Origin: Acidobacteriaceae bacterium
GTDB lineage: Bacteria; Acidobacteriota; Terriglobia; Terriglobales; Acidobacteriaceae
Reading direction: 5' to 3'
NCBI GenBank assembly: GCA_025360645.1
Contig: JANYBT010000060.1
Coordinates: 1 to 54,029, forward strand
Length of the DNA: 54,029 nt
Below the pieces are notes generated by a model, which saw nothing but the letters and a program-made list of their open reading frames with translations, was not told where the DNA came from and ran no database searches. Position numbers and translations under genes: made by a program. Shown here piece by piece: positions 3,019-25,779 of the stretch. Numbering within the stretch: the stretch's first letter is position 1; every line of letters begins with the position of its first letter.

Positions 3019-4449
3019 TCAACTTGCCGTCGCGGTGATTATTTCGGCTGGTTCGGGCGCGGAACGAATCCCATATTTGTTGAGTTTGTAGGCCAGCGCA
3101 CTGCGCGAAAGACCCATGCGGCGAGCGGCTTCGGCTTGCGCCCCCCCGGTGGTATTCAACATCTGCAAAATCAAATCCTTCTCGATACGCTCCAGGTGTT
3201 CGGTAAGGTCGAAGGGGCCACTCGCGGGTTCGGCTGCCGCGGGCTTGCCGTTGGTGGGAGGCAAGGCGATGGCGGCCATCTCAGGCATGTGGGCCACAGG
3301 GAAGTTTTCCGGGCCAATCTCTTCGCGGTTGGAGAGGATATAGGCGCGCTCGATCAGGTTGCGTAATTCGCGAATGTTGCCGGGAAAGTCATAGCGCTGC
3401 AGGCTTTCGGTGGTCTGCGGGCTCAGGCGGCGCAGCGGCAGCTTGAGTTCGGTGGCGATCTGGCGGGAGAACAACTCGCAAAGCTCGGGAATATCCTCGC
3501 GGCGTTGACGGAGGGGCGGAATCTCGATGGGAACCACCGCCAGACGATAGTAGAGATCTTCGCGGAAAGTGCCTTCGCGGACGCGGCGCTGCAGGTCGCG
3601 GTGAGTGGCGACGAGGACGCGTACATCCACGGCGCGCGGTTTGGTGGAGCCGACACGGAGGAGCTGTCCATCCACCAGGATGCGGAGCAACTTGGCTTGG
3701 GCGGCCAGAGACATTTCGCCGGCTTCATCGAGAAACAGAGTGCCTTCGTGGGCGGCTTCGAACAAGCCCTGGCGGGCGCGGTCGGCGCCGGTGAAAGCGC
3801 CTTTCTCGTGGCCGAACAATTCACTTTCCAACAGAGTTTCGGTGAAGGCGGCGCAGTTGACGGCAATAAAGGGCTTGGACGCGCGCGAGGAGTTGCGGTG
3901 AATGGCGCGGGCGACCAGTTCCTTGCCAGTGCCGGTTTCGCCGGTAATCAGAACGGTGGCGTGGGTGGGAGCGACGCGAGCAATTTTCTCCCGGACGGCA
4001 GCGATGGCGGAACTGGCTCCGAAGATCTCCGAAGCGCCTTCCAAGCGGACCACCGTACCTTTGAGCATGGCGTTTTCGCGCAGCAGACGAGTGCGTTGGG
4101 CGGCCCGAGCGGCGACCGCGCGAACGACTTCGGGCTGGAACGGCTTGGTCAGGAAATCGAAGGCGCCGAGGCGCATGCTCTCGACCGCGAGTTCGATGGA
4201 GACGACCGCGGTAAGCAGGACCACCGAGATTGTGGAGTCGGAATCGGCGGCGGCGGCCAAGACCTGCAGCCCAGCGCCGTCGGGCATCTTCTGGTCGGTA
4301 AAGATGACATCGAAGTCTTCATTCGCGATCTGGTTCTTGGCTTCTTCGACGCCCGCGGCCTCGAAAATCTCGTGCTTGTCCTGGCGCAGGTTCGAGGCCA
4401 GGATGCGACGCATGTGGGGTTCATCATCAACTATCAGGATCCTTGCCAT
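3019..4449 (-). CDS. NtrC-family sigma-54-dependent response regulator
   Basis: This cytosolic regulator opens sigma-54 promoters after phosphorylation. The 476 residues show a receiver domain with phospho-acceptor D52 (TDQKMPDG), T80 and K102, an AAA+ domain with Walker A GETGTGKE (170-177), the sigma-54 contact loop GAFTGA (217-222) and Walker B GTLFLDEAGE (236-245), then a Fis-type helix-turn-helix (about 425-462, ending RMGLSRSALAYKLNKYGI). The start codon shares one base with the stop of the upstream kinase gene (TAATG), so kinase and regulator are made together. The pair is divergent from the multiheme cytochrome genes, which are candidate targets; the sequence does not prove this. Confidence 0.95.
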   Translation of the reverse strand: MARILIVDDEPHMRRILASNLRQDKHEIFEAAGVEEAKNQIANEDFDVIFTDQKMPDGAGLQVLAAAADSDSTISVVLLTAVVSIELAVESMRLGAFDFLTKPFQPEVVRAVAARAAQRTRLLRENAMLKGTVVRLEGASEIFGASSAIAAVREKIARVAPTHATVLITGETGTGKELVARAIHRNSSRASKPFIAVNCAAFTETLLESELFGHEKGAFTGADRARQGLFEAAHEGTLFLDEAGEMSLAAQAKLLRILVDGQLLRVGSTKPRAVDVRVLVATHRDLQRRVREGTFREDLYYRLAVVPIEIPPLRQRREDIPELCELFSRQIATELKLPLRRLSPQTTESLQRYDFPGNIRELRNLIERAYILSNREEIGPENFPVAHMPEMAAIALPPTNGKPAAAEPASGPFDLTEHLERIEKDLILQMLNTTGGAQAEAARRMGLSRSALAYKLNKYGIRSAPEPAEIITATAS

Positions 4450-5738
4450 TACTTACCTCTCGGTGCCACTGGAATAGGCCTGTCCGCACTGGGCAGGAGG
4501 AAAGAAAAACAAATTTGATTGGGCTGGTTGCGGGCCAGCACCAGTTCGCTGTCGTGAGCCCGCACGATGTTGCGAGTGATCGACAGGCCGAGTCCAGTGC
4601 CCGTCGATTTGGTGGTGTAAAACGGCTCGAAGATGCGGGGGAGGTCGGCGCTGGAGATGGCGGGGCCGGAGTTTTCAATCTCGATATTGATCTTCCCGTC
4701 GGAGCGGGAGCCGCGCAGCCACACAGTTCCCCCAGCCGACGAAGCGTCAATCGCGTTCATCACCAGATTGAGCAGAGCCTGCTGGATCTGGGGCGCATCC
4801 ATCTCGGCGTGCAGATGTTCGGGAATCGCGATTTCGATGAAGACCTGCTGCGCGGTGGCCTTGGCCCGGCAGACGCTGGCGACATAGGCCAGAGTGTCGC
4901 TGACCGAGGTAGGCTCGGCTTCAGGCTTGCGGGGTCGCGCGTAACTCAAGAATTCTTCGGTCAAGATTTCCAGGCGCGAGGCCTCACGGGCGGCAATCTC
5001 ATACATTTCGTTTTGTTGTTGAGAATCCATTTCGCCTCGCGCCGCCATGGCCAACGAACTGGAGATCATGGCCACCGGATTTCTGATTTCGTGGGCAATC
5101 GCGCTGGAGAGCCGGCCGACTGCGGCCAGGGTTTCTTCCCGCAGCAGCTTTTCCCGCGTCTGCTCCAGCTCTAGCAAGTTACGGGCCAGCCGAGCCTCCT
5201 TCTCGTGCAAGTGCTTGACCAGCAACCAGACCAACACGCCGACTATGGCGAAGATCACCGAGGTCATGCCGGCCTCGACATACTCGCTGATCTCCACCGG
5301 CGGGTGTTTGGCGAAGAATTGGCTGACCATCTCGAAATTCAGGTAGCTGGCGACGCCAACCACGGCCACGACGGCAGGCAGGCCGAAGCGAAATGCGGCT
5401 TGCAGGATGGGGACTACCATCAGCACGAAATACGGGGTGTCTTCGTGATCGTCCAAATTGGTGAGCCCGTAGGCCAGCACCAGATAGAACACGATCGAGG
5501 TCCAAGTGAGCATGGCGATGGCACGGTGGGAGAGGGGATTCTCGAGCTGTTGCAACCACGCCAGCTCTGCCACGCTGATGACGCAGGCAGCGAACAGACA
5601 CAACATCAGGGGCACGGTGATGGTGCCCCAGAACGAAGAGAGGCGGTGGAGCAGCAGGAGAAAAATCAGCAGGGCCAGATTCAGAACGACAAAAATAGAT
5701 TCCTGGCGCTTGAAAGTGGGGAGATCGGTATTAGTCAT
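4449..5738 (-). CDS. Membrane sensor histidine kinase, partner of the NtrC-type regulator
   Basis: This is the sensor of a two-component system. From the ATG at 5738 it has 429 residues: about five or six membrane segments in the first 180 residues, a short coiled linker, a HisKA domain with the phospho-site in IAHEIRNPVAM (His about 216), and a HATPase_c domain with N-box NLVMNAIDAS and G-box GTGLGLSI. No PAS or large periplasmic domain is present, so the signal is probably sensed within or next to the membrane. A TTG at 5780 would add 14 residues; the ATG is preferred because neither start has a good Shine-Dalgarno and TTG is rarer. The stop overlaps the regulator start by one base. Confidence 0.93.
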   Translation of the reverse strand: MTNTDLPTFKRQESIFVVLNLALLIFLLLLHRLSSFWGTITVPLMLCLFAACVISVAELAWLQQLENPLSHRAIAMLTWTSIVFYLVLAYGLTNLDDHEDTPYFVLMVVPILQAAFRFGLPAVVAVVGVASYLNFEMVSQFFAKHPPVEISEYVEAGMTSVIFAIVGVLVWLLVKHLHEKEARLARNLLELEQTREKLLREETLAAVGRLSSAIAHEIRNPVAMISSSLAMAARGEMDSQQQNEMYEIAAREASRLEILTEEFLSYARPRKPEAEPTSVSDTLAYVASVCRAKATAQQVFIEIAIPEHLHAEMDAPQIQQALLNLVMNAIDASSAGGTVWLRGSRSDGKINIEIENSGPAISSADLPRIFEPFYTTKSTGTGLGLSITRNIVRAHDSELVLARNQPNQICFSFLLPSADRPIPVAPRGK

Positions 5739-6074
5739 GAGGTCGTGTCCGTCCAGTTTTGTGATCAAGCCGTACTCCAAGCGTAGAGTTTTCTGGACTG
5801 CAATGGTCAGATTTCTTTACTCGTGCCAGCTCACCCGTTGGATGTTAGCTCTCCAGCTCCGACTCCAGCTTGGCTTCATTCAGCTAAACCGTTTTTTGTC
5901 AGCAGGATACGGGCTAGCCATGTGGGTAATAAGGATTTCCCATAATGGGAACCAAGTTCAAATAACCAGCAGGTCTTGCCGGTCCAATATGTAGGGAGCA
6001 CTTCAAGAGCCACAGCTTACAGGTGTCGGCGTACACGACCGGCGAAGGATCCGGCCGAACGGAGAGGTGATTGC
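5739..6074. promoter_or_regulatory. Divergent intergenic region with a perfect palindrome
   Basis: This 336-bp gap separates the divergent kinase and first cytochrome genes, so it must carry promoters for both. It contains the perfect palindrome TTCCCATAATGGGAA at 5937-5951 (7-bp arms around one base), the kind of site a dimeric regulator binds. Its core also resembles a -10 element (CATAAT). A good Shine-Dalgarno, GGAGAGG, lies at about 6060-6067 before the cytochrome start. I found no convincing sigma-54 promoter: the best GG/GC pair has 9 rather than 10 bases between. Confidence 0.45.
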
Positions 6075-8036
6075 ATGAGCTTCCGCGTGCAGACGCGCGG
6101 ATTTGTGCTGGGGCTAATTTTTGCGGCGTGGTTCGTGGCGCCGACAGCCGCGCAAATTTCTCCCGGCGCGCTTTCGAGAGCCCACAAATCTTTGGACGGC
6201 GCGACCCAGTGTGCATCATGCCACAAGCTGGGCGGAGGCGAGCCGGTTTTTCGCTGTCTCGATTGCCACACGGAGATTGCCAGCCGATTGTCGGCACATC
6301 GCGGATTGCACTGGTCGTATGGAATCCAGGCGGGGTCGAGTCAGGAGTGCGCGCGCTGCCACTCGGAGCACAACGGTTCAGACTTCCCGCTGATCAAGTG
6401 GGACATCAAGAAGTTTGAGCACAAGCAGACAGGCTATGTGCTGGAAGGGAAGCACGAAGGCTTAACCTGCAACCGATGTCACACGCCGGACCACATTGGG
6501 GGAGCGGAACGCGCGGCGATCAGGATGAAGGATCCGGCGCGAACGTTTCTAGGAGTCTCGACGGCATGTATCACGTGTCACCAGGACCAGCACAACGGAC
6601 GCTTGGGGCCGAACTGCCAGCAGTGCCACAACTTCACCGACTGGAAGACGACATCCAAACAGTTCGACCATTCAAAAACGCGATATCCATTGACCGGACT
6701 GCACGCCCAGGTCGCTTGCCAAAAATGCCATACGCCCGCACCCGATGGCAAGCCGCGTTATGCGGGGCTGCCGTTTGGCAAGTGCTCAGACTGTCACGCT
6801 GACGTGCATCACGGAAGCTTCGCGCAGACCTGCCAGTCGTGCCACAACACGAGTGGGTGGAAGCGAGTATCGGTGGGCGGGCTGAACTCGAGCTTTGACC
6901 ACGCGAAGACGAAGTTTCTGCTGGTCGGCAAGCATCAGGGAGTGGACTGCTTGCAGTGTCACCAGAACGGCGACTTCAAGAAAGCGGTGGCATTCGCCAA
7001 ATGCGCTGACTGCCACAAGCCGGATCCGCATCACGGCCAGTTTGCGAAGCGTCCAGACCAAGGCGAATGCGGATCGTGCCACAACGAGCAAGGATGGAAG
7101 CCGGCGAAGTTCGGGCTGAAGGAGCACGCCGAGACCGCGTATCCGCTGGTGGACAAGCACGCCCAGGTAGAGTGCGCGCAGTGCCACATTCCAAAGGGCA
7201 AAGAGACGCTGTTCAAGATCAAATTTGCTCGCTGCCTGGATTGCCATAAGGATGAGCACGGCGGGCAATTCGCAGCAGCGCCTTACTCGAACCGCTGCGA
7301 GCAGTGTCACAACTTGAAGGGGTACAAGCCTTCGCTGTTTACCCTGGAACAACACAAGAAAACGCGATTTCTGTTGACCGACGGGCACTTGGCAGTGCCC
7401 TGCGGCGAGTGCCACAAGCCGAGGGAGAGCGCGAATTTGGGGTCGGTCGAGAGGAAGCCGCTGACGCCGTATCACTTTGATTCACTGACCTGCACTAGTT
7501 GCCACAAAGACCCGCATCAGGGAGAGTTCGCGAAGCGCACGCAGCAATTGCTGGCATCCGGCAAGCCTGCCGGATGCCAAGCCTGCCACTCCACCAAAGC
7601 GTGGAAGGAACTCTCACGATTCGACCACGCCAGCACGCAGTTTGTGCTGGTGGGAGCGCACCGGGGAGTGGCGTGCGGCGACTGCCACAAGCCGCCAAAC
7701 CTGGAAACCACGCTGCTGCATGTGAACTTCAGCGCAGCGCCGGTGAAGTGTGAAGACTGCCACGCCGATTCCCACGGCGGACAATTTGCCAACGGGGATC
7801 GGGTGACGGAATGCGCCAGTTGCCACAACAGCAACAAGTGGAAGCCATCGCTGTTTGAGCACGACAAGCGGACGAGCTTCGCACTGAAGGGAGCGCACCA
7901 GAATGTGCGTTGCGCGCAGTGCCACAGCGCGACGCGGGAGACCGAGGGCAAGCCGGTGCTGTTCTACAAGCCAACTCCGAAAGAATGCGCGGCGTGCCAT
8001 GGTGCGGACCCGAAGTTCAAAACCATTGCGCGATGA
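6075..8036 (+). CDS. Secreted multiheme c-type cytochrome with 23 CxxCH motifs
   Basis: The 653-residue protein begins with a clear signal peptide (hydrophobic FVLGLIFAAWFVAPTAAQ, cleavage near residue 27) and then carries 23 CxxCH heme-binding motifs, about one per 27 residues. It is built from degenerate repeats of the form F.H..T.F.L.G.H..V.C..CH followed by C.DCH...H.G.F and C..CH.....W. The recurrent extra His in FDH, GxH and HxG could be distal ligands for bis-His hemes (inference). Such proteins move electrons in the periplasm, across the outer membrane or on the cell surface. The ATG at 6075 is chosen because it has a GGAGAGG ribosome site and starts the signal peptide; in-frame extension upstream is not signal-like. 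It is followed by a second, larger cytochrome. Confidence 0.93.
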   Translation: MSFRVQTRGFVLGLIFAAWFVAPTAAQISPGALSRAHKSLDGATQCASCHKLGGGEPVFRCLDCHTEIASRLSAHRGLHWSYGIQAGSSQECARCHSEHNGSDFPLIKWDIKKFEHKQTGYVLEGKHEGLTCNRCHTPDHIGGAERAAIRMKDPARTFLGVSTACITCHQDQHNGRLGPNCQQCHNFTDWKTTSKQFDHSKTRYPLTGLHAQVACQKCHTPAPDGKPRYAGLPFGKCSDCHADVHHGSFAQTCQSCHNTSGWKRVSVGGLNSSFDHAKTKFLLVGKHQGVDCLQCHQNGDFKKAVAFAKCADCHKPDPHHGQFAKRPDQGECGSCHNEQGWKPAKFGLKEHAETAYPLVDKHAQVECAQCHIPKGKETLFKIKFARCLDCHKDEHGGQFAAAPYSNRCEQCHNLKGYKPSLFTLEQHKKTRFLLTDGHLAVPCGECHKPRESANLGSVERKPLTPYHFDSLTCTSCHKDPHQGEFAKRTQQLLASGKPAGCQACHSTKAWKELSRFDHASTQFVLVGAHRGVACGDCHKPPNLETTLLHVNFSAAPVKCEDCHADSHGGQFANGDRVTECASCHNSNKWKPSLFEHDKRTSFALKGAHQNVRCAQCHSATRETEGKPVLFYKPTPKECAACHGADPKFKTIAR

Positions 8037-8360
8037 TGCAAGCAGATGATGCATGCAAGGGATGGGCCTTACGAAGAGCGCTGTCCAGATTTTTCGACCT
8101 CGTAGTTCAAGTTCCTCGACCGTAAAAAATCCTCAAGGGACAGAAGAAGTTACATCTGCTGAGTGGAGTTAGGAGATGTTGCGAATTGCAACATTGCAGT
8201 TCTGCTTTTTGCGAATTGGGCAGTTGCAACAGTTCACGAGGAGAGTAAAGCATTTCATCAGGATGGAGAATGAATTGCTTTGCTGTTTACACACAGGATG
8301 GCCACGCGGCCATTGCTTAGTTCTTGAACTCGTAAAACCAATTTTTGAACGAAGGGCATT
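8037..8360 (+). promoter_or_regulatory. Gap between the two cytochrome genes with two perfect inverted repeats
   Basis: This 324-bp gap is long for an operon interior and may hold a second promoter or an RNA-level control site. It contains ATGTTGC-GAATT-GCAACAT (8176-8194, perfect 7-bp arms) and ATGGCC-ACGC-GGCCAT (8298-8313, 6-bp arms). The ten-base string TTGCGAATTG occurs twice, once inside the first repeat and again about 30 bp downstream. No convincing gene and no U-tract terminator are seen. Confidence 0.4.
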
Positions 8361-10490
8361 GTGATTTTCGGTCTGGCGGCACATTTCGCGATGGTGTGGC
8401 TGTTGCTGCCGATGCCAGGATCGCAAACGGCAAAGCCAGCGCAGAGTACGCATAGCCCTCATGGCACCCTGACCCTTCCCTGCGAGAGCTGCCACACCGA
8501 AGCAGGCTGGAAGCCGATCCGCGCCATCCCTGAGTTTGATCACAACCAGACGAAGTTCCCTCTACGCGGATTGCACGAAGGGGTACAGTGTATCCAGTGT
8601 CACGTCAAGCCGGTGTTCACCAACGTTGGCGCCAAGTGCTCGTCGTGCCATGCGGACCTGCACAAGGGCCAGTTCGGGGCGGCCTGCGAGCAGTGCCATT
8701 CGGTGAAGGGATGGAACGTCAAGATTCAACAGATCAAAGAACACCAAAATCGGTTTCCGTTAATTGGAGGGCACGCCGCGCTGGAGTGCGAAACCTGCCA
8801 CACGGGCGCGGCGACGGGACAGTTCCAGGGACTCTCCACCGCGTGTTATAGCTGCCACGCCAAGGATTACCAGAATACTTCGGGCCCCAGTCACGTGGCG
8901 ACGGGGTTCCCCACGACTTGCGAACAGTGCCACAGCCTGAATACGTGGTTTGACGCAAAGTTCGACCACAGCAAGTTCACGAATTTTGCGCTGACCGGAG
9001 TGCACACCACGCTACAGTGCACGCAGTGCCACATCGGCGGGCAGTTTAAGGGAACGCCTGCGACTTGCGTGGGTTGCCATCTGCCCGCATTCCAGGGAAC
9101 GGACAACCCAAGTCACGTGAAGTTGAACCTGCCCCAGACTTGCCAGAACTGCCATACCACTTCGGCCTGGATGCCGGCATTCTTCGATCATTCGCTGGTG
9201 GGATTCGCCCTGACCGGGGCGCATGCTCCATTGCAATGTTCGCAGTGCCACACCAATAATAATTACAACTTGACCAACACCGAGTGCGTGGCGTGTCACC
9301 TGAAGAATTTCCAGGACACCAACAATCCCAACCACGCGCAGTCGGGATTCCCGCAGACCTGCGCCACCTGCCACAACACCACTACCTGGCTGACGGTGAC
9401 GTTCAACCACAGCAGCACCGGGTTTCCGTTGACCGGCGCCCACGTGCCGCTACAATGCTCGCTCTGCCACATCAACAACAACTACAACCTGAAAACCGCG
9501 GACTGTGTGAGCTGCCATCTGCCTCAGTACCAGGGGGCAACCAACCCGAACCACGTGACGCAGAGCTTCCCCCAGACTTGCCAGAACTGCCATAGCACGG
9601 TGAACTGGCTGAACGCGACGTTCAACCACACCTCCACGGGCTTTGCGCTGACGGGGGCCCACCTGCCGCTGGCCTGCTCGCAATGCCATATCAACGGCAA
9701 TTACAACCTGACCAGCGCGGCCTGCGTGAATTGCCACTTGAAGGCATACCAGGCGACCACGGACCCCAACCACGTGGCGTCCGGCTTTCCGCAGACCTGC
9801 GAATCGTGCCACTCGACCACTTCCTGGGCGGGCGCGATCTTTAACCATGCCTCCACTGGCTTTGCCCTGACGGGCGCGCATGTGCCGCTGCAATGCGTGC
9901 AGTGCCATGTGAACAATAACTACAACCTGAAGACCGCGGCCTGCGTGGATTGCCACCTGACGCAATACAACAGCACCACCAATCCGAACCACGCGGCGGC
10001 GGGATTTCCGCAGCAATGCGAGCTGTGCCACGGCACCACGGTGTGGACGGACTCGACCTTTAACCACAACAACACGCCGTTCCCGCTGACCGGCGCGCAC
10101 ACCACGCTGGCTTGCGCCAGTTGCCACGTGAACAATAACTACACCACGCTGCCGACGGATTGCTACGGCTGCCATAAGGCCCAGTACCAGAGCACCACCA
10201 ATCCGAACCACATGGCGGCGGGCTTCCCGACCACCTGCCAGACTTGCCACTCGACGCAGACCTGGCTGGGCGCGGTGTTCAACCACACTTATTTCCCGAC
10301 GCCACACCATGGCATTAGCACTTGCACCGACTGCCACACCAATGCGAATGATTACAAAGTCTTTACTTGCACGGGGTGCCACTCGCATCCCAAGGCGGAT
10401 ACGGACAGTCACCACCAGGGAGTGAGCGGATACGTGTACAACAGCACGAACTGTTTGGCCTGCCACCCCACCGGGAATGGCGGCGGATAA
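8361..10490 (+). CDS. Repeat-built multiheme c-type cytochrome with 28 CxxCH motifs
   Basis: The 709-residue protein has 28 CxxCH motifs. After an irregular seven-heme N-terminal part come seven tandem units of about 73 residues (from about 8904), each with three CxxCH motifs and three conserved extra His in F(N/D)H, GAH or GVH, and NPNH-type positions; the last unit is degenerate. Three hemes plus three spare His per unit suggests bis-His ligation. The start must be GTG at 8361, since an in-frame stop lies at 8346. The resulting leader (IFGLAAHFAMVWLLLP) is hydrophobic but lacks the usual positive N-region, so the true N-terminus or a sequencing error deserves a check. High Asn/Thr content in the repeats suits an extracellular or surface protein. 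Function in extracellular electron transfer is inferred. Confidence 0.93.
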   Translation: MIFGLAAHFAMVWLLLPMPGSQTAKPAQSTHSPHGTLTLPCESCHTEAGWKPIRAIPEFDHNQTKFPLRGLHEGVQCIQCHVKPVFTNVGAKCSSCHADLHKGQFGAACEQCHSVKGWNVKIQQIKEHQNRFPLIGGHAALECETCHTGAATGQFQGLSTACYSCHAKDYQNTSGPSHVATGFPTTCEQCHSLNTWFDAKFDHSKFTNFALTGVHTTLQCTQCHIGGQFKGTPATCVGCHLPAFQGTDNPSHVKLNLPQTCQNCHTTSAWMPAFFDHSLVGFALTGAHAPLQCSQCHTNNNYNLTNTECVACHLKNFQDTNNPNHAQSGFPQTCATCHNTTTWLTVTFNHSSTGFPLTGAHVPLQCSLCHINNNYNLKTADCVSCHLPQYQGATNPNHVTQSFPQTCQNCHSTVNWLNATFNHTSTGFALTGAHLPLACSQCHINGNYNLTSAACVNCHLKAYQATTDPNHVASGFPQTCESCHSTTSWAGAIFNHASTGFALTGAHVPLQCVQCHVNNNYNLKTAACVDCHLTQYNSTTNPNHAAAGFPQQCELCHGTTVWTDSTFNHNNTPFPLTGAHTTLACASCHVNNNYTTLPTDCYGCHKAQYQSTTNPNHMAAGFPTTCQTCHSTQTWLGAVFNHTYFPTPHHGISTCTDCHTNANDYKVFTCTGCHSHPKADTDSHHQGVSGYVYNSTNCLACHPTGNGGG
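8904..10388 (+). repeat. Seven tandem units of about 219 bp encoding tri-heme modules
   Basis: Units start at about 8904, 9126, 9345, 9564, 9783, 10002 and 10221, so most are exactly 219 bp (73 codons). Each opens with GFPQTC-like codons and encodes three CxxCH motifs. Units 3 to 5 are the most alike, pointing to recent duplication by recombination; the last is shortened and merges into a different C-terminal tail with two or three further motifs. Confidence 0.9.
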
Positions 10491-10565
10491 GCAACGGCCA
10501 CGGAACTGCAAGCAATCGAGTGAGAACGATGCCCTCCCCCCACAGCGCTGACAGTGAGAAGAACG

Positions 10566-12398
10566 ATGAAGATAGCCCGACAATTCGGATTTGTTCTTCT
10601 CCTGTTGAGCTGTGCCGTGGCGCAAGATTCGCCGGCGCTGCGGATGCGACCTGACCCTCCAAGCATTCGCCCACAGGACGCGGCTGAAGCGACGGCGGAG
10701 GCCGCGGGGACGATCTCCGTGGTGGAAGACGCCAACCAGGATCTGCAAACGGTTTTCAAGATCAAGTATGTCGCCGCCGACGCGGTATATCTCGACGGTG
10801 GGCGCAGCGCCGGGCTGGCGGAAGGCGTGAAGCTGGTAGTGCGCGAGCCGATGACCGCGAAACCGCAAGCGGCGACCGCAGCGACCGCAGCACCGGCAGC
10901 GGAGAATGATTTGCCGGGCGTGGTGGCGGAACTCGTGGTGCTGTCGGTAGCCGAGACTTCCGCGGTGGCTCGGATTCAATCCCCCAAGCGGGCGCTGGTC
11001 GCGGGTGACATCGCTTCACTTTCTTCCGCCGACCAGGAAGCGCTGGTGCAGAAGAATGCGCTGAGCGCGACCCGAAAATATCCCATGGTGATCAGCTTTA
11101 CCGAAGGCGACACCTTGGACGACGAAGCGCGCGAAGAAGTGCCGCGCCCCCCGCTGCCCTCGGTGAACCGCGCTCGCGGACGTTTCGGCCTGGACTACTC
11201 CGGAGTCTCGAGTCCGGGGAGAGCCGGTTCCACCAGCTCCAACGTGGGGGTGGTCTTTCGCGGCGATATCACGCGCATCAATGGCACTTACTGGAACCTA
11301 AGTGGCTACTGGCGCGGCAGTATGAATACGCACTCCGGGGCCGGGACGCAGACTCTGCAAAACCTGCTCAACCGGACCTATCACCTCAGCCTGAGTTACC
11401 AGAACCCGAATTCGGCGTGGGTGGCGGGTGTGGGGCGTCTGTTTCTGCCATGGGCCAGCAGCCTCGACACCATTGACGGCGGATATTTTGGCCGTCGCGT
11501 GCACCCCGGTGTGACGCTGGGAGTGTTCGCCGGTTCCACGCCCGACCCGACTTCCTACAACTACAATCCCGACCGAAAGATTGGCGGCACCTTCGTCAAC
11601 TTTGAGGGCGGCAGCTATGACGACTTGCACTACACCAGCACTTCCGGATTCGGCATCAGCACGTTGAAGTGGCAGATTGACCGTCCCTTCGTGTTCTTTG
11701 AAAACGGAATTTTCTATAAACAAAAATTTTCCGTTTACCATTCTTTGCAGGCAGACAGCCCCAAGGGGAATGCCGCCGTGACCGCGCCTGGCGCGGGTAT
11801 TGGGCGCAGTTTCCTGACGGTGCGCTTTCAACCCGTGCCGCGGGTCGAACTCACGCTCAACCACAGTTACTTTCGCGACGTCCCCACCTTCGACCCGTCG
11901 CTGATCGGTACCGGGCTGCTCGACAAATATCTGTTCCAGGGATTCAGCGTGGGAGCGCGGGTCGAGGTGCACAAACAGATTTGGCTCTACGGCGATCTTG
12001 GCCGGAGCAGCCGCAGCGGCGACGCCAAGACTTCGCTCAACGAGCTGTTTGGAGTGACCTTGGGGCGGGTGCCGTTCATCGCAACGCGCGCAGATTTCCG
12101 CTACTCGAAATTCAACAGCTCGTTTGGAGCGGGCTCCTACTCCGCGTTGTCGCTGTCGCGCAGTTTCAACGACAACCTGCGTTTCGAGCTGCTGGCGGGC
12201 AAGCAGAGCTTCACTTCAACACTGGCGGGAACGGACTCCGCGAAGTTTGTGACCTTCAACGCCGAGTCTGCGCTGGGGCCGCACTATTTCATTCAAAGTG
12301 GAATTACGGTGAGCCGGGGTCGAGTGCAGAACTACAACCAGTGGAACACGACTATTGGCTACCGCTTCGATTCCAAAGGGAAAGCCAAGATCAAATGA
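10566..12398 (+). CDS. Outer-membrane beta-barrel (porin-like) candidate of the cytochrome cluster
   Basis: The 610-residue protein starts with a signal peptide (MKIARQFGFVLLLLSCAVAQ). An N-terminal part with a small beta domain (about residues 55-150, including VYLDGGRSAGLAEGVKLVV) is followed from about 195 by long stretches of alternating polar and hydrophobic residues rich in Tyr, Phe, Gly and Ser, as in transmembrane beta strands. No known family is recognised with certainty. Its place directly after two giant cytochromes suggests the barrel of a porin-cytochrome conduit that lets hemes cross the outer membrane (inference by analogy with Mtr/Pcc systems; no sequence relation claimed). 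An ATG at 10566 is chosen over GTG at 10554 because it starts the signal peptide. It overlaps the next gene by 4 nt (ATGA). Confidence 0.78.
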   Translation: MKIARQFGFVLLLLSCAVAQDSPALRMRPDPPSIRPQDAAEATAEAAGTISVVEDANQDLQTVFKIKYVAADAVYLDGGRSAGLAEGVKLVVREPMTAKPQAATAATAAPAAENDLPGVVAELVVLSVAETSAVARIQSPKRALVAGDIASLSSADQEALVQKNALSATRKYPMVISFTEGDTLDDEAREEVPRPPLPSVNRARGRFGLDYSGVSSPGRAGSTSSNVGVVFRGDITRINGTYWNLSGYWRGSMNTHSGAGTQTLQNLLNRTYHLSLSYQNPNSAWVAGVGRLFLPWASSLDTIDGGYFGRRVHPGVTLGVFAGSTPDPTSYNYNPDRKIGGTFVNFEGGSYDDLHYTSTSGFGISTLKWQIDRPFVFFENGIFYKQKFSVYHSLQADSPKGNAAVTAPGAGIGRSFLTVRFQPVPRVELTLNHSYFRDVPTFDPSLIGTGLLDKYLFQGFSVGARVEVHKQIWLYGDLGRSSRSGDAKTSLNELFGVTLGRVPFIATRADFRYSKFNSSFGAGSYSALSLSRSFNDNLRFELLAGKQSFTSTLAGTDSAKFVTFNAESALGPHYFIQSGITVSRGRVQNYNQWNTTIGYRFDSKGKAKIK

Positions 12399-13204
12399 AC
12401 TTGCGACTTTTATGCGGATACGGCGGACGGGGGATGGCGCTGATGCTGGCGTTGAGCCTGTTCGTCCCGTCCGCGCCAGCCAGAACGGTACCGGTCGACG
12501 ATCTGCGGGAGCGCACCAGCCAGCAGGTGGCGGCGTTTCTGGACGAATTCTCGGATGTAAAGTGCACTGAAGTCGTGACCCAGGAGAAGCTGCGCAAAGA
12601 CGGCAAAACGGAGTTGCATCAGCAGTCCACCTACGACTATCTGGTGATCATGAGCAATGCCGGGGGCGAGCTGAACTTGAACGAGTCGCGACTGGCCCTC
12701 AAAGTAGGAAGCGGGGCCAGCAAGAAGAATGTTTCGCTGCTGGTGAGCAACGGATTTGCCACCATGTTCCTGATCTTTCATCCCTACTATGCGGACGGCT
12801 TCCGCTTTACCGAGACCGGAGCAGAAGTGGTGGAGGGCCGCTCGCTGAGCAAGATCCATTTCGAGCACATCCGCGGCAGGAAGTCTCCGGTGGCGCTGGC
12901 GTTGCGCGGACGGGAGTTCGCGCTGGAGATTTCGGGCGACGCCTGGATTGACTCTGCGACCGGCAACATCGTGCGCATGACGGCCGGGGTGAACCAGGGA
13001 CTGGAAGATATCGGAATGAAATCGATGCTTTCCGATGTTCGCTTTGCAGCAGTTCCGTTCCGTGGGCAGAAAGAGGTCTATTGGTTTCCCGCGGAGGCGA
13101 GCGTCGAGGTGGAGACGCCGCGGCAACACTGGCGCAACCACCACCAGTTCACCGACTACAAGAAATTCTCAGTTAGCACGGAGGAGCACGTTTCTACCCA
13201 ATGA
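12395..13204 (+). CDS. Secreted LolA-like hypothetical protein
   Basis: The 269-residue protein has a signal peptide (MALMLALSLFVPSAPAR region) and a beta-rich body ending in WLP/WFP-A-x-x-VEVE and HWRNHHQFTDYKKFSVST, a pattern I associate with secreted acidobacterial proteins of the LolA/LppX-like fold. No catalytic or heme motif is present. Start and stop each overlap neighbours as ATGA, so it is made together with the barrel upstream and the membrane protein downstream. It may assist barrel or lipoprotein assembly in the periplasm, but this is inference. Confidence 0.72.
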   Translation: MNLRLLCGYGGRGMALMLALSLFVPSAPARTVPVDDLRERTSQQVAAFLDEFSDVKCTEVVTQEKLRKDGKTELHQQSTYDYLVIMSNAGGELNLNESRLALKVGSGASKKNVSLLVSNGFATMFLIFHPYYADGFRFTETGAEVVEGRSLSKIHFEHIRGRKSPVALALRGREFALEISGDAWIDSATGNIVRMTAGVNQGLEDIGMKSMLSDVRFAAVPFRGQKEVYWFPAEASVEVETPRQHWRNHHQFTDYKKFSVSTEEHVSTQ

Positions 13205-14142
13205 GCACGAATGCCACGGTCGCTTCCGCAGTCCTGCCAGCTCGCAGCCGGGAGAGTGGCCACCACGCTCGCCTAGTTGCGGCCTATGTGATCGCCATCG
13301 CCTTGATTCTGGGAATCTTCGGCTATGGGCTCGACTACTACACCGCAAGCTCTGCGGAGCGGCCATTCTCCCCGAAGCACGCGCTCCTGCGTCCGAGTGG
13401 ACACATCGGAATCAACCTCGGCATTCTCGGGCTAGTGATGTTCGTGGTGATTTTTCTGTACCCGCTACGCAAGCGCTGGCCGTGGCTGGCGCGGCAAGGC
13501 AGCACCAAACGCTGGCTGGATTTCCACGTCCTGCTGGGTTTGTCGGCGCCGTTTGTGATTGCGCTGCACTCGTCGTTCAAGTTCCGTGGCATCGCCGGCG
13601 TGGCCTTCTGGATCATGCTGGCGGTTTCGCTCAGCGGCGTGGTGGGGCGGTATCTCTACGGCCAGATCCCGCGCCAGTTGAATGCAGCCGAGATGTCGCG
13701 GAAAGAACTGCAAGACTTGCAACAAGACTTCACCCGCCGTTTGTCAGAAGAAAAAATGCTGCCTGAGGAGAATTTGCGGGAGGCGCTAAAACTTCCCAGC
13801 CAGGCCCAGGTGGATAAGCTCCCCGTTCTGGTGGCGCTGGTTTATATGTTCGCTCTCGACTTGGCGCGGCCGTTGCGGATCGCCCGCCTGCGCCGCCATG
13901 CTCTGACCCTGGGTGAGCGAACGGCCTCGCTGGGAGGCTTGCTTGCCAGCCAACACGCGGACCTGGAACGCGCTATTACCACGGTGCGCGAGGAAGCGGC
14001 GCTGGCCAAGCGCATCTTGTTCTTGACGCGTTCGCAGCAGGTATTTCACCTGTGGCATGTGATCCACAAGCCGTTCAGCTACACCTTTGCAGTGCTGGCG
14101 CTGGGACATGTGGTTGTGGTTTTTCTGATGGGATACTTGTGA
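13201..14142 (+). CDS. Membrane protein with two H-x13-H pairs, putative di-heme cytochrome b
   Basis: The 313 residues form about five membrane segments (about 25-44, 68-88, 107-126, 131-150 and 290-311), with a soluble, helical and charged stretch at 155-280. Two helices hold His pairs thirteen residues apart: H109/H123 and H289/H303, with H68, H283 and H286 also near membrane faces. Paired H-x12/13-H in two helices is the way NADPH oxidases and ferric reductases bind two stacked b hemes, so a role in moving electrons across the inner membrane is likely. No flavin or NAD(P) domain is fused; that part is probably the next gene, 7 nt downstream. The family is not recognised by name. Confidence 0.72.
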   Translation: MSTNATVASAVLPARSRESGHHARLVAAYVIAIALILGIFGYGLDYYTASSAERPFSPKHALLRPSGHIGINLGILGLVMFVVIFLYPLRKRWPWLARQGSTKRWLDFHVLLGLSAPFVIALHSSFKFRGIAGVAFWIMLAVSLSGVVGRYLYGQIPRQLNAAEMSRKELQDLQQDFTRRLSEEKMLPEENLREALKLPSQAQVDKLPVLVALVYMFALDLARPLRIARLRRHALTLGERTASLGGLLASQHADLERAITTVREEAALAKRILFLTRSQQVFHLWHVIHKPFSYTFAVLALGHVVVVFLMGYL

Positions 14143-14149
14143 GGCCGCA

Positions 14150-15598
14150 ATGGATACCCTGATTTCTGTCATCATTGCGGTAGTGGTTTCGCTCTTCTTC
14201 GTGCGAGGCTACCTGAAGAAGCTGACGGCGAAGGCGGCTCCTCGCGCAGCGGCAGCACCGGCGCCAGTTGCTATGCATCCCTGCCCGCGCTGTTCCCAGC
14301 CCATTCCCAAGACGTCGTCCTTCTGCTCGCATTGTGGTGCGGCGCTGGCGATGTGGACGGTGCATCGCGCCGAGATTACCACCAGCAGCGGGGACGCCAA
14401 GGGCAAGCCCAAACCGGTGATCAACGCGTCGCTCTGCGTCGGCTGCGGCGGGTGCATTGAAGTGTGTCCGGAAGTGGGCGCCATGGAACTGATTCAAGGC
14501 AAGGCGATTCTTACCCATCCGGAGTTATGCACCGGCCATGCCAAATGCGCGGAAGCCTGTCCGACGAATGCTATCGCTTATGCATACGACGGCGTGCTGC
14601 AAACCGTCAAAGTGCCGAACGTGAAGGAAGATTTCGAAACCAACGTGTCCGGTCTGTACATTGTCGGCGAATTGGGCGGCATGGGACTGATCAAGACCGC
14701 CATCAACGAAGGCAAGCTGGCGATCGACTACGTGCGACAGCGGTTGCAGGCGGAAACCGGCAAGTCCGGGGCTCCCGACGATGCGTTTGACGTGGCGATT
14801 GTCGGCGCGGGGCCGGCGGGGCTGAGTGCCTCGCTTAGCGCGCATCAGTACGATCTTCACTACATCACGCTTGAGCAGGGCGAGATTGCTTCCACCATTC
14901 GCAATTATCCTCGCCACAAGTTTCTGATGGCCGAGCCGCTAAGCATTCCGCTGTATGGCAACCTCTACATTGCCGACAGCAGTAAGGAAGCGCTGCTGGC
15001 GGTGTGGGAAACCATTGTGCAGAATACCGGCGTACGCATTCAAACCAACGAGCGCCTGGAGCGGGTGCAGCGCAATGGCAGCGGCTTCCACGTAGAGTCT
15101 AGCAAGAGGAAGTACTACGCCCGCTATGTAGTGCTGGCGCTGGGACGGCGCGGGTCGGCGCGAAAACTCAGCGTGCCCGGCGAAGAGTTGAGCAAGGTGG
15201 CCCACCGTTTGATCGAAGCCGAGACCTATGAAGACAAAAATGTTTTGGTAGTTGGCGGCGGAGATTCGGCGATCGAGGCCGCTATCGCCTTGGGCCGCGC
15301 GGGAAAAAACCGGGTCACGCTGAGCTATCGGGGCGCAGACTTCAAGCGCGCCCGGGAACGCAACCAGCATTTTCTGGAAGCCGCCGAAAAAGAAAGCAAG
15401 CTTCGCGTGGTCCGCCGCTCCAACCTGGTCGAGATCCTGCCCGCTTCCGTCGCGATCGACGTTCAGGGCGCGCGCGAAGAGATTCCCAATGACTATGTGT
15501 TCATCCTGATCGGCGGCGAATCGCCAGAGGAATTTCTGACCAAGATGGGAGTGGAGATCGTGGAGAAGTCGCTACAGCCCACGCCGACGTTCAGCTAA
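14150..15598 (+). CDS. Membrane-anchored Fe-S/FAD/NAD(P) oxidoreductase
   Basis: The 482-residue protein is a modular oxidoreductase. It has one N-terminal membrane helix (about 4-20), a zinc ribbon (C45, C48, C59, C62), a ferredoxin domain, and a thioredoxin-reductase-like FAD/NAD(P) domain with GAGPAG (218-223) and a second dinucleotide site VVGGGDSAIEAA. Cluster one is complete (CVGCGGCIEVCP). Cluster two reads CTGHAKCAEACP, so its second ligand is His130 rather than Cys. No CxxC redox pair like that of true thioredoxin reductase is seen. The enzyme could pass electrons from NAD(P)H through FAD and Fe-S to the di-heme b protein encoded 7 nt upstream (inference). It ends the cytochrome cluster. 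Confidence 0.85.
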   Translation: MDTLISVIIAVVVSLFFVRGYLKKLTAKAAPRAAAAPAPVAMHPCPRCSQPIPKTSSFCSHCGAALAMWTVHRAEITTSSGDAKGKPKPVINASLCVGCGGCIEVCPEVGAMELIQGKAILTHPELCTGHAKCAEACPTNAIAYAYDGVLQTVKVPNVKEDFETNVSGLYIVGELGGMGLIKTAINEGKLAIDYVRQRLQAETGKSGAPDDAFDVAIVGAGPAGLSASLSAHQYDLHYITLEQGEIASTIRNYPRHKFLMAEPLSIPLYGNLYIADSSKEALLAVWETIVQNTGVRIQTNERLERVQRNGSGFHVESSKRKYYARYVVLALGRRGSARKLSVPGEELSKVAHRLIEAETYEDKNVLVVGGGDSAIEAAIALGRAGKNRVTLSYRGADFKRARERNQHFLEAAEKESKLRVVRRSNLVEILPASVAIDVQGAREEIPNDYVFILIGGESPEEFLTKMGVEIVEKSLQPTPTFS

Positions 15599-23418: not shown

Positions 23419-23676
23419 GGCCCGAAGCAGTGTCCACCAAGCCCGACTCGGCTGCCTTCGGCGGAAGGCCGAAAACGCGAACCGCAAAGAAATCCTTGCT
23501 TTGTGTGGAAAACAACCTTCTCGGGCTACCCACGCCCGCCTCGGCTTGACGCGGCCTCCGATTCAGCGGAAAATTCGGCCATCGCTCCTCGTCCGCGCCG
23601 TGGACACCCTGTCCCCCAACCCCCGGTGTCCGGCCAGGCTCCAGCGGTCAGGAAAGTTGTCTATGGGAAGTTGTCT

Positions 23677-25779
23677 ATGGAACTAGAAATCGGCCAGCGG
23701 CGTTCGCTTATTCCCGAAGTGATGGTCAGCTATTCCAGCTTCGACCGTCCTCAGGTTTTGCAGATTGTGCAGCGCCTGCGAGCCGCGGGTGTCGCCGCGT
23801 GGATTGACCAGGGCGGCATTGACGGCGCTCAGAAATGGGGCGAGGAGATCGTCAATGCCATTGACGCCTGTAAGACCGTCGTCCTGATGGTTTCGCGCTA
23901 CTCCATGGAGTCGGAGAACATCGGCAAAGAAGTGATGTTGGCATGGGAGAGCGGCAAGAAGTTCCTGCCCTTGTGCCTGGATGACACCCGAATTCCCAAG
24001 TCCATGCAGTATCAGCTTGCCGGCATTCAGCAGATCAAGTTGTACGAGGGCGACCCCGAGGTAAAATTCACCGCCGTCCTCCGCTCGCTGATGCGGTTGC
24101 AAGTTCATGTGTCGCCCTATCATGTGGCTTTGATCTATGCCGGCTCGGGAGACCCCGACGAAGCTTTCAATTGGTTAAACCGGGCGTGCGAAGAGCGTTC
24201 CGGAGGCCTGGCGCACCTGGAGACAGAGCTGCGCTTCAGTGGACTGAAAACCGACCCGCGTTTCCAGCCACTGCTCAACCGAGTGAAGACTCTGACGTTG
24301 CAGCCGGAAGACGCGGCGGCGAATCTTCCGCTGGTCTTGCCGAAAACTCAGGTCCGGAACCCGCCCACCGGGCCCATCCCCTGGTGGAAGAAATTCTTCT
24401 GGCCTGATATTTATGACGATCGCAGCGCCCGGCACGCGGCGGCTCTGGGTGTGTTCGCATCGGCTCTCTTGGTCGCATCCGCATTGCTGCTGACGCTTTC
24501 CACTTTTTTGGTCAACAACCCCGCTTTAGGATTTGGTGTCGGAGCCACCGCAACCTATGCCATCTTCATGTTCGTTCCCGTCGGCATCGGCATCCAGAAG
24601 ATGGGTCGTCCCGCCGCTATCATCGGGCTGGTGCTGTGCGCAATGGGCACGATGACCAACATGAATATGCTGACCGCCATGCAGGGCGCAGTCGCGGCCT
24701 ACTCCAACTTGCCGGGACAGCAGAACATCTACCTGGTGCCATACCTCTACGCTTGGGCGGGGTTTCTGGTATCGCTGGTAGCAGTTGTAGGACTGACCCA
24801 TGCAACGCGCGGTACCCTGGCCTATCACCAGATGGTGATGAACCGCGAAGCGCGCGACAAGCAGGATGCGATCAACGCCGAGGAGTTTGTCGCCATCAAG
24901 GCTACGGTTTTCGGTTTCATGACCCGATCCAGATCGCAGATGAACACGCTACGAGCGGCGGCCGAATCAGTCGCGGCGCGTACCACGGCTCCTTCCGCGA
25001 AAGCACCTTCCATTAAACCAGCGGTCACCTCTGTACACTCCGTGGCGGAGATTCCGGACGAGGTCGTGACCCCAGCACCCGTGATCGCTGTGTTGGCTGA
25101 GCCGCTGTTGCCGCAGACCTTGCCCAGCGTCATACCCGGGCTCAGCTTTGCTGAAGTGATCGGCGTACAAGCTCGCATGCGCTGGTTTTCCGCAGCGTCG
25201 TTTCTGCTGGCCAACCTGCTGGCTGGTCTCACTTACCTCGCGTTCCTCGCGGCCACGGGCAAGACGCAAATCCATCCCGTGTACTGGCAGGCAGTGTTCT
25301 ATGAGCGCGTCTTGCTGGCACTCGCGGCATTACTAGGTTTTCGCTTCCTCAAGAAGTTCTGGCTCGCTGCGCTGGTGGCCGCAGCGCTGGCGGCGGTGGT
25401 TGAGTTGCCGGCCTATGCCCAGCTCCCAAGCTTTCAAGCCTGGGGAGACTTGGTGTACCGCGAGCCCTTCCAGCAGTTTGTTCTGTTGCCGTTCTGCTAT
25501 GGATTTTTCTTTCTTGCCGGGTTGGCCCTGGCAGTTCCGCGAGTGAAGCCGTTGCCCCTGGGGCTGTGGCTGGGCGCAATGGCGGCCGAAGTCCTTACTC
25601 CCGTGGTGGCCAACCTGCTTCAAGTGTTTGGCTCAGGCAAGCCGCCCGATGCGCTGCTGGCGGGAACGTCAGTGGTATTCGCAGTCTTGCGAAGTCTGGT
25701 GTTTGCGGGAGTGCTGTGGGCCCTGCTGGAGTTGCTTCGCAAACTGCGCCCGGAGTGGGGGCTGGCGCAGCGGCCCTGA
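23677..25779 (+). CDS. TIR-domain polytopic membrane protein
   Basis: The 700-residue protein begins with a TIR domain (about 12-140: EVMVSYSSFDRPQVLQIV, AAWIDQGGIDG, SENIGKEVMLAWESG with a candidate catalytic Glu85). Next is a TPR-like stretch (YAGSGDPDEAFNWLNRACEE), then about four membrane segments (275-395), a cytosolic linker of about 150 residues and six or so more segments (about 555-690). Bacterial TIR domains can cleave NAD or build signalling assemblies; several antiviral systems use them. This membrane fusion could kill or signal at the membrane (inference). ATG 23677 is chosen because the TIR fold begins right after it; the upstream in-frame stretch is low-quality and Pro-rich. 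Confidence 0.85.
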   Translation: MELEIGQRRSLIPEVMVSYSSFDRPQVLQIVQRLRAAGVAAWIDQGGIDGAQKWGEEIVNAIDACKTVVLMVSRYSMESENIGKEVMLAWESGKKFLPLCLDDTRIPKSMQYQLAGIQQIKLYEGDPEVKFTAVLRSLMRLQVHVSPYHVALIYAGSGDPDEAFNWLNRACEERSGGLAHLETELRFSGLKTDPRFQPLLNRVKTLTLQPEDAAANLPLVLPKTQVRNPPTGPIPWWKKFFWPDIYDDRSARHAAALGVFASALLVASALLLTLSTFLVNNPALGFGVGATATYAIFMFVPVGIGIQKMGRPAAIIGLVLCAMGTMTNMNMLTAMQGAVAAYSNLPGQQNIYLVPYLYAWAGFLVSLVAVVGLTHATRGTLAYHQMVMNREARDKQDAINAEEFVAIKATVFGFMTRSRSQMNTLRAAAESVAARTTAPSAKAPSIKPAVTSVHSVAEIPDEVVTPAPVIAVLAEPLLPQTLPSVIPGLSFAEVIGVQARMRWFSAASFLLANLLAGLTYLAFLAATGKTQIHPVYWQAVFYERVLLALAALLGFRFLKKFWLAALVAAALAAVVELPAYAQLPSFQAWGDLVYREPFQQFVLLPFCYGFFFLAGLALAVPRVKPLPLGLWLGAMAAEVLTPVVANLLQVFGSGKPPDALLAGTSVVFAVLRSLVFAGVLWALLELLRKLRPEWGLAQRP

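Follow-up and report, generated by a model that had tools for sequence, protein, structure and literature searches.

A PCC3-like candidate electron conduit with its own pyridine-nucleotide module in Acidobacteriota

The window analysed here is a stretch of 54,029 nucleotides (nt) from an Acidobacteriaceae bacterium (assembly GCA_025360645.1, contig JANYBT010000060.1), in which six neighbouring plus-strand genes at 6075-15598 encode two multiheme cytochromes (CytA and CytB), a beta-barrel candidate, a fourth protein, a membrane protein (MemB) and an oxidoreductase of the flavin adenine dinucleotide type (the FAD protein). We read these genes as a PCC3-like, trans-envelope conduit for extracellular electrons that possesses its own entry point for pyridine nucleotides and in which outward flow is the likelier direction; we give this reading a probability of roughly 0.6. 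A conduit function is likely by analogy with described systems. As far as the published sources covered here extend, the PCC3 set is already known, while the added NAD(P)H module and the presence in Acidobacteriota are new.

Conservation of the gene set

An earlier note, made from the letters of the window, had proposed that electrons run from NAD(P)H through FAD and Fe-S centres, heme b and periplasmic hemes to the barrel, or the reverse. The six-gene observation behind it is confirmed and is not due to chance, because the gene order recurs in relatives and every one of the 23 CxxCH motifs of CytA is kept in all 27 aligned sequences. The counts of 23 and 28 CxxCH given for the two cytochromes were reproduced, as were the junctions described for the last four genes, which are translationally coupled or nearly so: the barrel and fourth genes overlap by ATGA at 12395-12398, the start of MemB (13201) lies inside the end of the fourth gene (overlap 13201-13204) and a gap of 7 nt separates MemB from the FAD gene.

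The best 80 of 195 MemB relatives in a named collection (the 80 loci) come mostly from Terriglobia, Acidobacteria(ceae) and Bryobacterales. Carriers include Ca. Sulfotelmatobacter, Ca. Sulfopaludibacter and the strain Occallatibacter savannae AB23 (L116), and palsa, fen, bog and groundwater are found among their sample names. The plain six-gene order, which the earlier note had suggested looking for in relatives, lies on one strand in 34 of the 80 loci (smaller genes in between were not looked for). The barrel was found at 77 MemB loci, the fourth protein at 76 and the FAD protein at 71; in 62 of these 71 the FAD gene starts no more than 300 nt downstream on the same strand, and in six it occupies the opposite strand. 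In four of the nine loci without FAD the sequence stops no more than 760 nt from MemB; L144, among these four, retains a 74-bit FAD fragment. Multiheme genes were missing from 15 loci, all of which have less than 4.1 kb upstream.

A wider sample of 247 Acidobacteriota genomes contained a MemB relative in 45 at E <= 0.001; counting the window's own, 26 genomes have one at E below 1e-30. At the 25 other strong loci, the CytA profile matched a multiheme protein in 22, while FAD, barrel and fourth protein were found in 18, 15 and eight, respectively; several of these regions end at contig ends, and a 46-bit FAD match in L039 was left uncounted. Gene order is conserved in Terriglobia and differs beyond close families. 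A five-gene core (MemB, FAD, CytA, CytB and barrel) recurs, rearranged, in other Acidobacteriota families.

Counterparts of these genes also occur in Bacteroidota, where plasmid pEMTOL02 of Emticicia oligotrophica DSM 17448 (L159) carries the whole conduit core together with a cytochrome c biogenesis gene, in the order ccsA, MemB, FAD, 23-heme protein, 40-heme protein, barrel relative and GW-domain protein. Profile E-values, obtained over a set of only 16 proteins, were 6e-82 for MemB, 3e-152 for FAD, 6e-192 for CytA and 1e-22 for the barrel. The fourth protein has no match in the pEMTOL02 set, and it is for this reason that we count the core as five genes. The location of the core on a plasmid suggests transfer between lineages.

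The encoded proteins

The two H-x13-H pairs that the earlier note had seen in a membrane protein are those of MemB (H109-x13-H123 and H289-x13-H303). Residues H109, H123, H289, H303, W285 and H286 show no variation in either of two alignments (25 of 25 and 55 of 55 sequences); W105 is nearly invariant in both, and S145, G146 and G149 (SGVVG) are invariant in both. The predicted structure is helical, with five long membrane-type helices (pLDDT 87.7), and we propose that MemB is a transmembrane diheme cytochrome b. Two H-x13-H helices beside a FAD/NAD(P)H unit recall the NOX and ferric reductases, as these appear in the sources covered. However, the Pfam ferric-reductase model PF01794 scores 18.4 on MemB against a cut-off of 28, and the flavin unit is here a separate protein matched by pyridine-nucleotide-disulphide oxidoreductase models. 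Profile searches of the PDB with MemB, the barrel and the fourth protein returned nothing useful.

The FAD protein was correctly described at the outset as an anchored Fe-S/FAD/NAD(P) oxidoreductase: it comprises one N-terminal hydrophobic stretch, a zinc ribbon, a ferredoxin-like domain and a Pyr_redox_3 domain (E=1e-43). The first Fe-S motif has four invariant Cys and the second only three (C127, C133 and C137). Across 17 aligned sequences, eight of which possess the zinc ribbon, no Cys of the FAD domain is conserved; GxGxxG, GGGDSA and R394 do not vary. The best NCBIfam match is YpdA (TIGR04018), and the best PDB matches are thioredoxin reductase and Bdr, which might suggest a thiol-disulfide (bacillithiol-type) reductase unrelated to the hemes. 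Nevertheless, the YpdA score of 177.6 bits lies below the cut-off of 339.9, the position which we take to be that of the YpdA active Cys is occupied by A or G, no Cys of the FAD domain is conserved, and the Fe-S motifs are. Identity as a disulfide reductase was rejected on these grounds, and we regard the corresponding explanation as highly improbable.

In a tree of 79 FAD proteins, for which the ribbon was left out of the alignment, the zinc-ribbon subtype forms one side of one branch. When the subtype label is placed on the MemB tree, nine changes are needed, at least five of them forced by starred branches (both trees are quick ones, with correspondingly weaker stars); the label nevertheless remains clustered, with none of 500 shuffles scoring as low. 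Either in-place replacement or differential loss of two ancient neighbouring copies would explain this pattern in the sequences. That one of the two subtypes stays beside MemB argues for a shared function. In L102 two FAD-type genes (702 and 414 bits) follow MemB, a possible intermediate of subunit exchange.

More distant MemB relatives keep company with other flavin modules. Four loci (L056-L058 and L065) place a YpdA-like FAD protein ahead of a MemB relative and a decaheme protein; where scanned, in L056 and L057, the FAD protein carries cNMP and Fe-S domains and the decaheme protein FHA domains. The same set of YpdA-like FAD/cNMP/Fe-S protein, MemB relative and decaheme protein is found in Sphingobium (L163), where FHA was not scored. 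A single protein in L059, L061 and L066 combines an 8-heme stretch with FHA, 4Fe-4S and FAD domains, and in these loci the neighbour of the fusion protein joins a MemB relative to further domains. Locus L064 (5904-12285) has, in a row, NuoE/F-like and NuoG-like/cNMP neighbours, a MemB relative and a decaheme protein, possibly a NADH-linked variant. On plasmid 3 of Variovorax WDL1 (L162, 6782-10468), an NAD(P)H-type flavin/2Fe-2S reductase with FAD_binding_6, NAD_binding_1 and Fer2 domains is adjacent to a MemB relative and a 7-heme protein; this set sits beside copper-resistance genes, and on a Bradyrhizobium plasmid the counterpart of the flavin protein is a shorter piece beside a transposase. 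The recurring pattern is that three unrelated kinds of nucleotide-type flavin unit occupy one side of MemB and multiheme cytochromes the other.

CytA is nearly constant. Besides the 23 CxxCH motifs, exactly 23 further His and no Met are invariant in the 27 sequences, which is what 23 bis-histidine hemes predict. The 80 loci yielded 51 CytA pieces, of which 41 contain 23 motifs. The split copies of L103 and of L113 reach the same total when added up; two full-length copies deviate, with 20 in L088 and 21 in L124, and the other four pieces are cut at contig ends. Among the 25 wider-phylum loci, the 23-heme protein is encoded in one frame in 13 and in two pieces in one.

CytB, conversely, is modular, with triheme units of about 73 residues (CxxCH spacing of 32, 16 and 25 residues) that are reflected in a 219-bp tandem period in the DNA. 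The heme count ranges from 19 to 79 over 29 full-length relatives and equals 1 modulo 3 in 24 of them (binomial p 6e-8, kinship ignored), or in 41 of 54 when partial pieces are included; single counts may be distorted by metagenome assembly of tandem repeats. Two named strains gave 34 (O. savannae AB23) and 40 (Emticicia). The longest relative, in L143 (1468-7404), has 79 CxxCH in a single open frame. We infer from these sequences that CytA would have a fixed span to bridge and CytB would not.

The barrel candidate of the earlier note gained structural backing: an AlphaFold2 model built from 48 sequences has 22 strands over residues 206 to 606 (pLDDT 75.4, pTM 0.61), and its best structural matches are outer-membrane barrels. 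At the N-terminus the model places a small domain of about 90 residues and a linker; no plug-sized domain was recognised. VIA matches are led by siderophore (TonB-type) receptors (Z 17.6, 5.1 Å over 347 residues), and some of the aligned receptor ranges begin at model residues 163-205, before the first strand. A TonB-type transporter is disfavoured given an N-terminal part of only about 90 residues and a linker, although a plug may exist. No MtrB structures were among the VIA matches listed for the model, and no NCBIfam family matched the barrel at E <= 1. The one close relative scanned (L071) has a barrel with an AMIN domain in addition, absent from the window copy.

The fourth protein had been labelled LolA-like, a label that we withdraw: none of 26 family members matches a LolA-type Pfam model. 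Its secretion signal was read by eye only, and no 19-residue stretch exceeds the hydropathy threshold.

Comparison with described conduits and competing readings

PCC3 comprises a porin with periplasmic (median 21 hemes) and extracellular (median 34 hemes, maximum 85) cytochromes, according to the parts of He et al. 2017 (PMC5566968) on which our comparisons with PCC3 and PCC4 rely. Its inner-membrane protein (IMP) has about 300 residues and five helices, with a WX3HX13H motif on each of helices 3 and 5 and SGXXG on the fourth. MemB agrees with this description in its five helices, two WX3HX13H motifs and SGXXG, with W105 nearly invariant and the rest invariant. By description, too, CytA with 23 hemes compares to the median of 21 and CytB is variable (19 to 79); the residue-to-heme ratios (653/23 = 28 for CytA and 709/28 = 25 for CytB) fall within the PCC3 range of 22-39, and a porin gene is adjacent, here the 22-strand barrel model present in 77 of the 80 loci. 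The portions of Hoover et al. (PMC10734462) covered give periplasmic cytochromes of 21, 24 or 27 hemes and others of 10-35 for Gallionellaceae PCC3, and raise the idea that the former can reach across the periplasm.

The window set differs in adding an NAD(P)H-type FAD/Fe-S gene and the fourth gene, in a barrel of 22 strands where PCC3 porins have up to 42 predicted, and in its hosts, which are Acidobacteriota and a Bacteroidota plasmid as opposed to the listed Alpha-, Beta- and Gammaproteobacteria (PMC5566968). Searches of plasmids yielded none recognised as a proteobacterial PCC3, and the likeness drawn here rests on the published descriptions. The earlier note knew of no described system with this exact set. 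In part this must be revised, since the barrel, cytochromes and MemB fit the published PCC3; neither this set joined to an NAD(P)H module nor a PCC3 in Acidobacteriota was met with in print, within a coverage that leaves out preprints and most subscription journals.

Other systems are more remote. PCC4 likewise combines a porin and further redox proteins with a five-helix IMP that carries the PCC3 motifs; its periplasmic cytochromes, however, have 4, 5 and 10 hemes and it lacks an extracellular cytochrome (PMC5566968), and to it the sets of L056-L058, L065 and Sphingobium look akin. Likely porin-cytochrome complexes were already reported in Acidobacteria for Holophaga S7 (PMC7399161, 2020), but these are of the MtrB and ExtB/E types, and giant cytochromes, an IMP and a FAD gene go unmentioned in the parts of that paper covered. 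MtrCAB, MtoAB and PioAB likewise place a barrel and multiheme cytochromes across the outer membrane; membership of the MtrAB/MtoAB/PioAB group was rejected, with CytA scoring 59 on the DmsE/MtrA model against a cut-off of 192.2 and the barrel matching no NCBIfam family at E <= 1. In Verrucomicrobia from humic bogs, a barrel and adjacent multiheme genes were assigned the same proposed role, but with an eight-heme periplasmic cytochrome and, in the parts covered, neither a MemB nor a FAD gene described (PMC5615132).

Several observations weigh against our reading. A FAD gene was not found in five of the 80 loci despite 6.8-10 kb after MemB, nor in seven of the 25 wider-phylum loci (some regions end early). 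The distribution is patchy, with a strong MemB match in six of 26 sampled genomes of the window's own family and a weak match in one. MemB scores below the ferric-reductase threshold; its model has no Foldseek match at E <= 0.001, and the VIA matches of the model to cytochromes b are weak (b561/b6f, Z 6.1-6.6; for b561, Z 6.6 with 131 aligned residues at 3.9 Å), some unrelated rows scoring higher. Outside Terriglobia the CytA count varies (20 in L051, 24 in L042 and L055), and the best CytA match in L040, L046 and L052 has 32 to 51 hemes. By eye, CytB has no lipobox or surface signal to support an outside location. Emticicia, furthermore, is an aerobe of oxic water.

In the mechanism we favour, NADPH (or NADH) would reduce the FAD of the anchored cytoplasmic protein, whose Fe-S clusters would pass electrons to two b hemes in MemB and so across the inner membrane. 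The 23-heme, all-bis-histidine CytA would take them through the periplasm as far as the 22-strand barrel; at or beyond the outer membrane, the modular CytB would carry or store them. In oxygen-poor soil the cell would thereby rid itself of reducing power, with humics, Fe(III) or partner cells as acceptors and the quinone pool bypassed. We infer, in this account, heme loading, localisation, surface exposure, NAD(P)H use and cofactor preference, direction and acceptor alike. All-bis-histidine hemes tend toward low potential; outward flow would be favoured because of this, because the own genome has no RuBisCO match (controls matched) and because NAD(P)H oxidation is downhill in the outward direction. 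The route proposed in the earlier note is partly supported, in its outline, by gene sets in two phyla and in-place FAD changes, and further by the 8-heme/FAD fusions and two other NAD(P)H-type modules beside MemB.

Four other explanations, not mutually exclusive, were weighed, the disulfide reductase being one. The same hardware could work inward, passing electrons from Fe(II), reduced humics or other cells through the barrel and cytochromes to NAD(P)+ at the FAD protein, driven by the membrane potential. The habitat of Emticicia would suit this direction, four heme-copper oxidase matches in the own genome could power uptake, and the published discussion of PCC3 concerns Fe(II) oxidation (PMC5566968), a further point against outward flow. 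The missing RuBisCO match, however, makes autotrophic iron oxidation by that cycle unlikely. Additionally, transfer from Fe(II) to NAD(P)+ is steeply uphill, and several relatives are named for palsa, fen or bog. We consider inward operation unlikely.

Alternatively, MemB may exchange electrons with quinone, as the authors of PCC3 proposed, the FAD gene next to it serving some other purpose. A quinone-active IMP is what He et al. suggest, and no NAD(P)H subunit is named in the parts covered (PMC5566968); the loci that lack a nearby FAD gene agree with such an arrangement. Set against it are the FAD gene at 71 of the 80 loci, the at least five in-place subtype changes, the Bacteroidota set and the heme-FAD fusion in relatives, and we judge it unlikely.

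CytA and CytB might instead be capacitors of a periplasmic electron store, with the barrel an ordinary pore. Like CytB, the Geobacter nanowire cytochromes are built of tandem triheme units (four triheme domains in GSU1996; GSU2210 has 27 hemes), and GSU1996 and GSU2210 are described as periplasmic and most likely capacitors, although no barrel/NAD(P)H operon is described for them in the parts covered (PMC10138318). The triheme-domain model TIGR04257 scores 28.2 on CytB against a cut-off of 40. That CytB has no recognised surface signal favours a store; against it, the barrel accompanies MemB in 77 of the 80 loci and in the Bacteroidota set. A store of this kind seems to us distinctly unlikely.

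A more far-reaching form of the NAD(P)H-fed conduit can be put forward only tentatively: a self-contained wire from NAD(P)H to the outside that bypasses quinone, occurs in at least two phyla and is plasmid-borne, with an inner wire of 23 hemes for a fixed periplasm width and an outer one tuned by triheme modules for delivery distance.

To our knowledge, the extracellular electron pathways characterised so far are supplied by quinol. If real, an NAD(P)H-fed conduit would allow bacteria in soil to discard or acquire electrons at the potential of the nucleotide, serving their redox balance and not the making of a proton gradient. Acidobacteriota are abundant in palsa, fen and bog settings, where their electron exchange is little explained, and many carriers are Terriglobia, several from samples so named. 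The carriage by O. savannae AB23 and E. oligotrophica DSM 17448 makes this kind of conduit testable in named strains, and the pairing of a near-constant with a modular wire offers a natural series for relating heme-chain length to conduction distance.

Regulation and genome context

Upstream of the conduit genes and divergent to them, the window encodes a histidine kinase and a response regulator (Table 1). A kinase relative above 240 bits was found in five of the 80 loci.

Table 1. Conduit genes, divergent regulators and promoter-like site in the window
Feature	Position	Strand	Properties
CytA, 23-heme cytochrome	6075..8036	+	23 CxxCH; N-terminal hydrophobic signal-like stretch; proposed periplasm-spanning wire
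CytB, 28-heme cytochrome	8361..10490	+	28 CxxCH; triheme modules of ~73 residues; proposed outer wire or electron store
Barrel, outer-membrane beta-barrel (predicted)	10554..12398	+	22 strands in AlphaFold2 model; small N-terminal domain; no recognised plug
Fourth protein, putatively secreted	12395..13204	+	No assigned fold; 76/80 loci; unmatched in Emticicia set
MemB, five-helix membrane protein	13201..14142	+	Two W-x3-H-x13-H motifs and SGVVG; proposed transmembrane diheme cytochrome b
FAD protein, membrane-anchored oxidoreductase	14150..15598	+	Zinc ribbon, two Fe-S motifs, YpdA-type FAD-NAD(P)
NtrC-type response regulator	3019..4449	-	Pfam Sigma54_activat (E=1e-71), Response_reg, HTH_8 (receiver, sigma-54 activation domain, Fis helix-turn-helix)
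Histidine kinase, paired with the regulator, divergent to conduit genes	4449..5780	-	HATPase_c and HisKA
Sigma-54-type -24/-12 promoter-like site	8264..8279	+	TGG-N8-TTGCW; 97 nt before CytB

The -24/-12 spacing of sigma-54 promoters takes the form TGG-N8-TTGCW, and a site of this form lies in the CytA-CytB spacer of about 325 nt. It recurs in 21 of 40 relatives' spacers where 0.5 would be expected by single-base shuffling; as the pattern was chosen after viewing a seven-row alignment of the window and six of the 40 spacers, we also give the count without those six, which is 15 of 34. The expectation was again 0.5 before CytA, with eight of 43 stretches matching (the window's own CytA lacks the site), and before the barrel, with none of 64 matching. 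Matches concentrate in the nearer relatives of the window. The stricter TGGCAC-N5-TTGCW, allowing one mismatch, gave three matches in the window against 2.4 expected, none of which falls in the spacer preceding CytA or in that preceding CytB. The own genome encodes sigma-54, and the conduit genes are probably under sigma-54-type control. Upstream of the site, at 8150-8260, the near-repeats TTGCGAATTG and GTTGCAAC may be regulator sites.

Elsewhere in the window, 23503-25779 encodes a 758-residue protein with a TIR domain and no assigned role. The remainder of the genome contains a candidate second conduit (C19 4261-14122, L157) with 16-, 4- and 11-heme proteins, a SurA-like peptidyl-prolyl isomerase and a protein of about 630 residues that has no family match and may be a barrel. 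At C128 6220-9879 (L158), an 11-heme protein with a cytochrome-b-like C-terminal part, which we take to be CbcL-like by its architecture, adjoins a 6-heme NrfH-like membrane protein, all below family cut-offs. Contig C59 holds a locus read by eye as alternative complex III. The genome content fits a heterotroph with several electron outlets.

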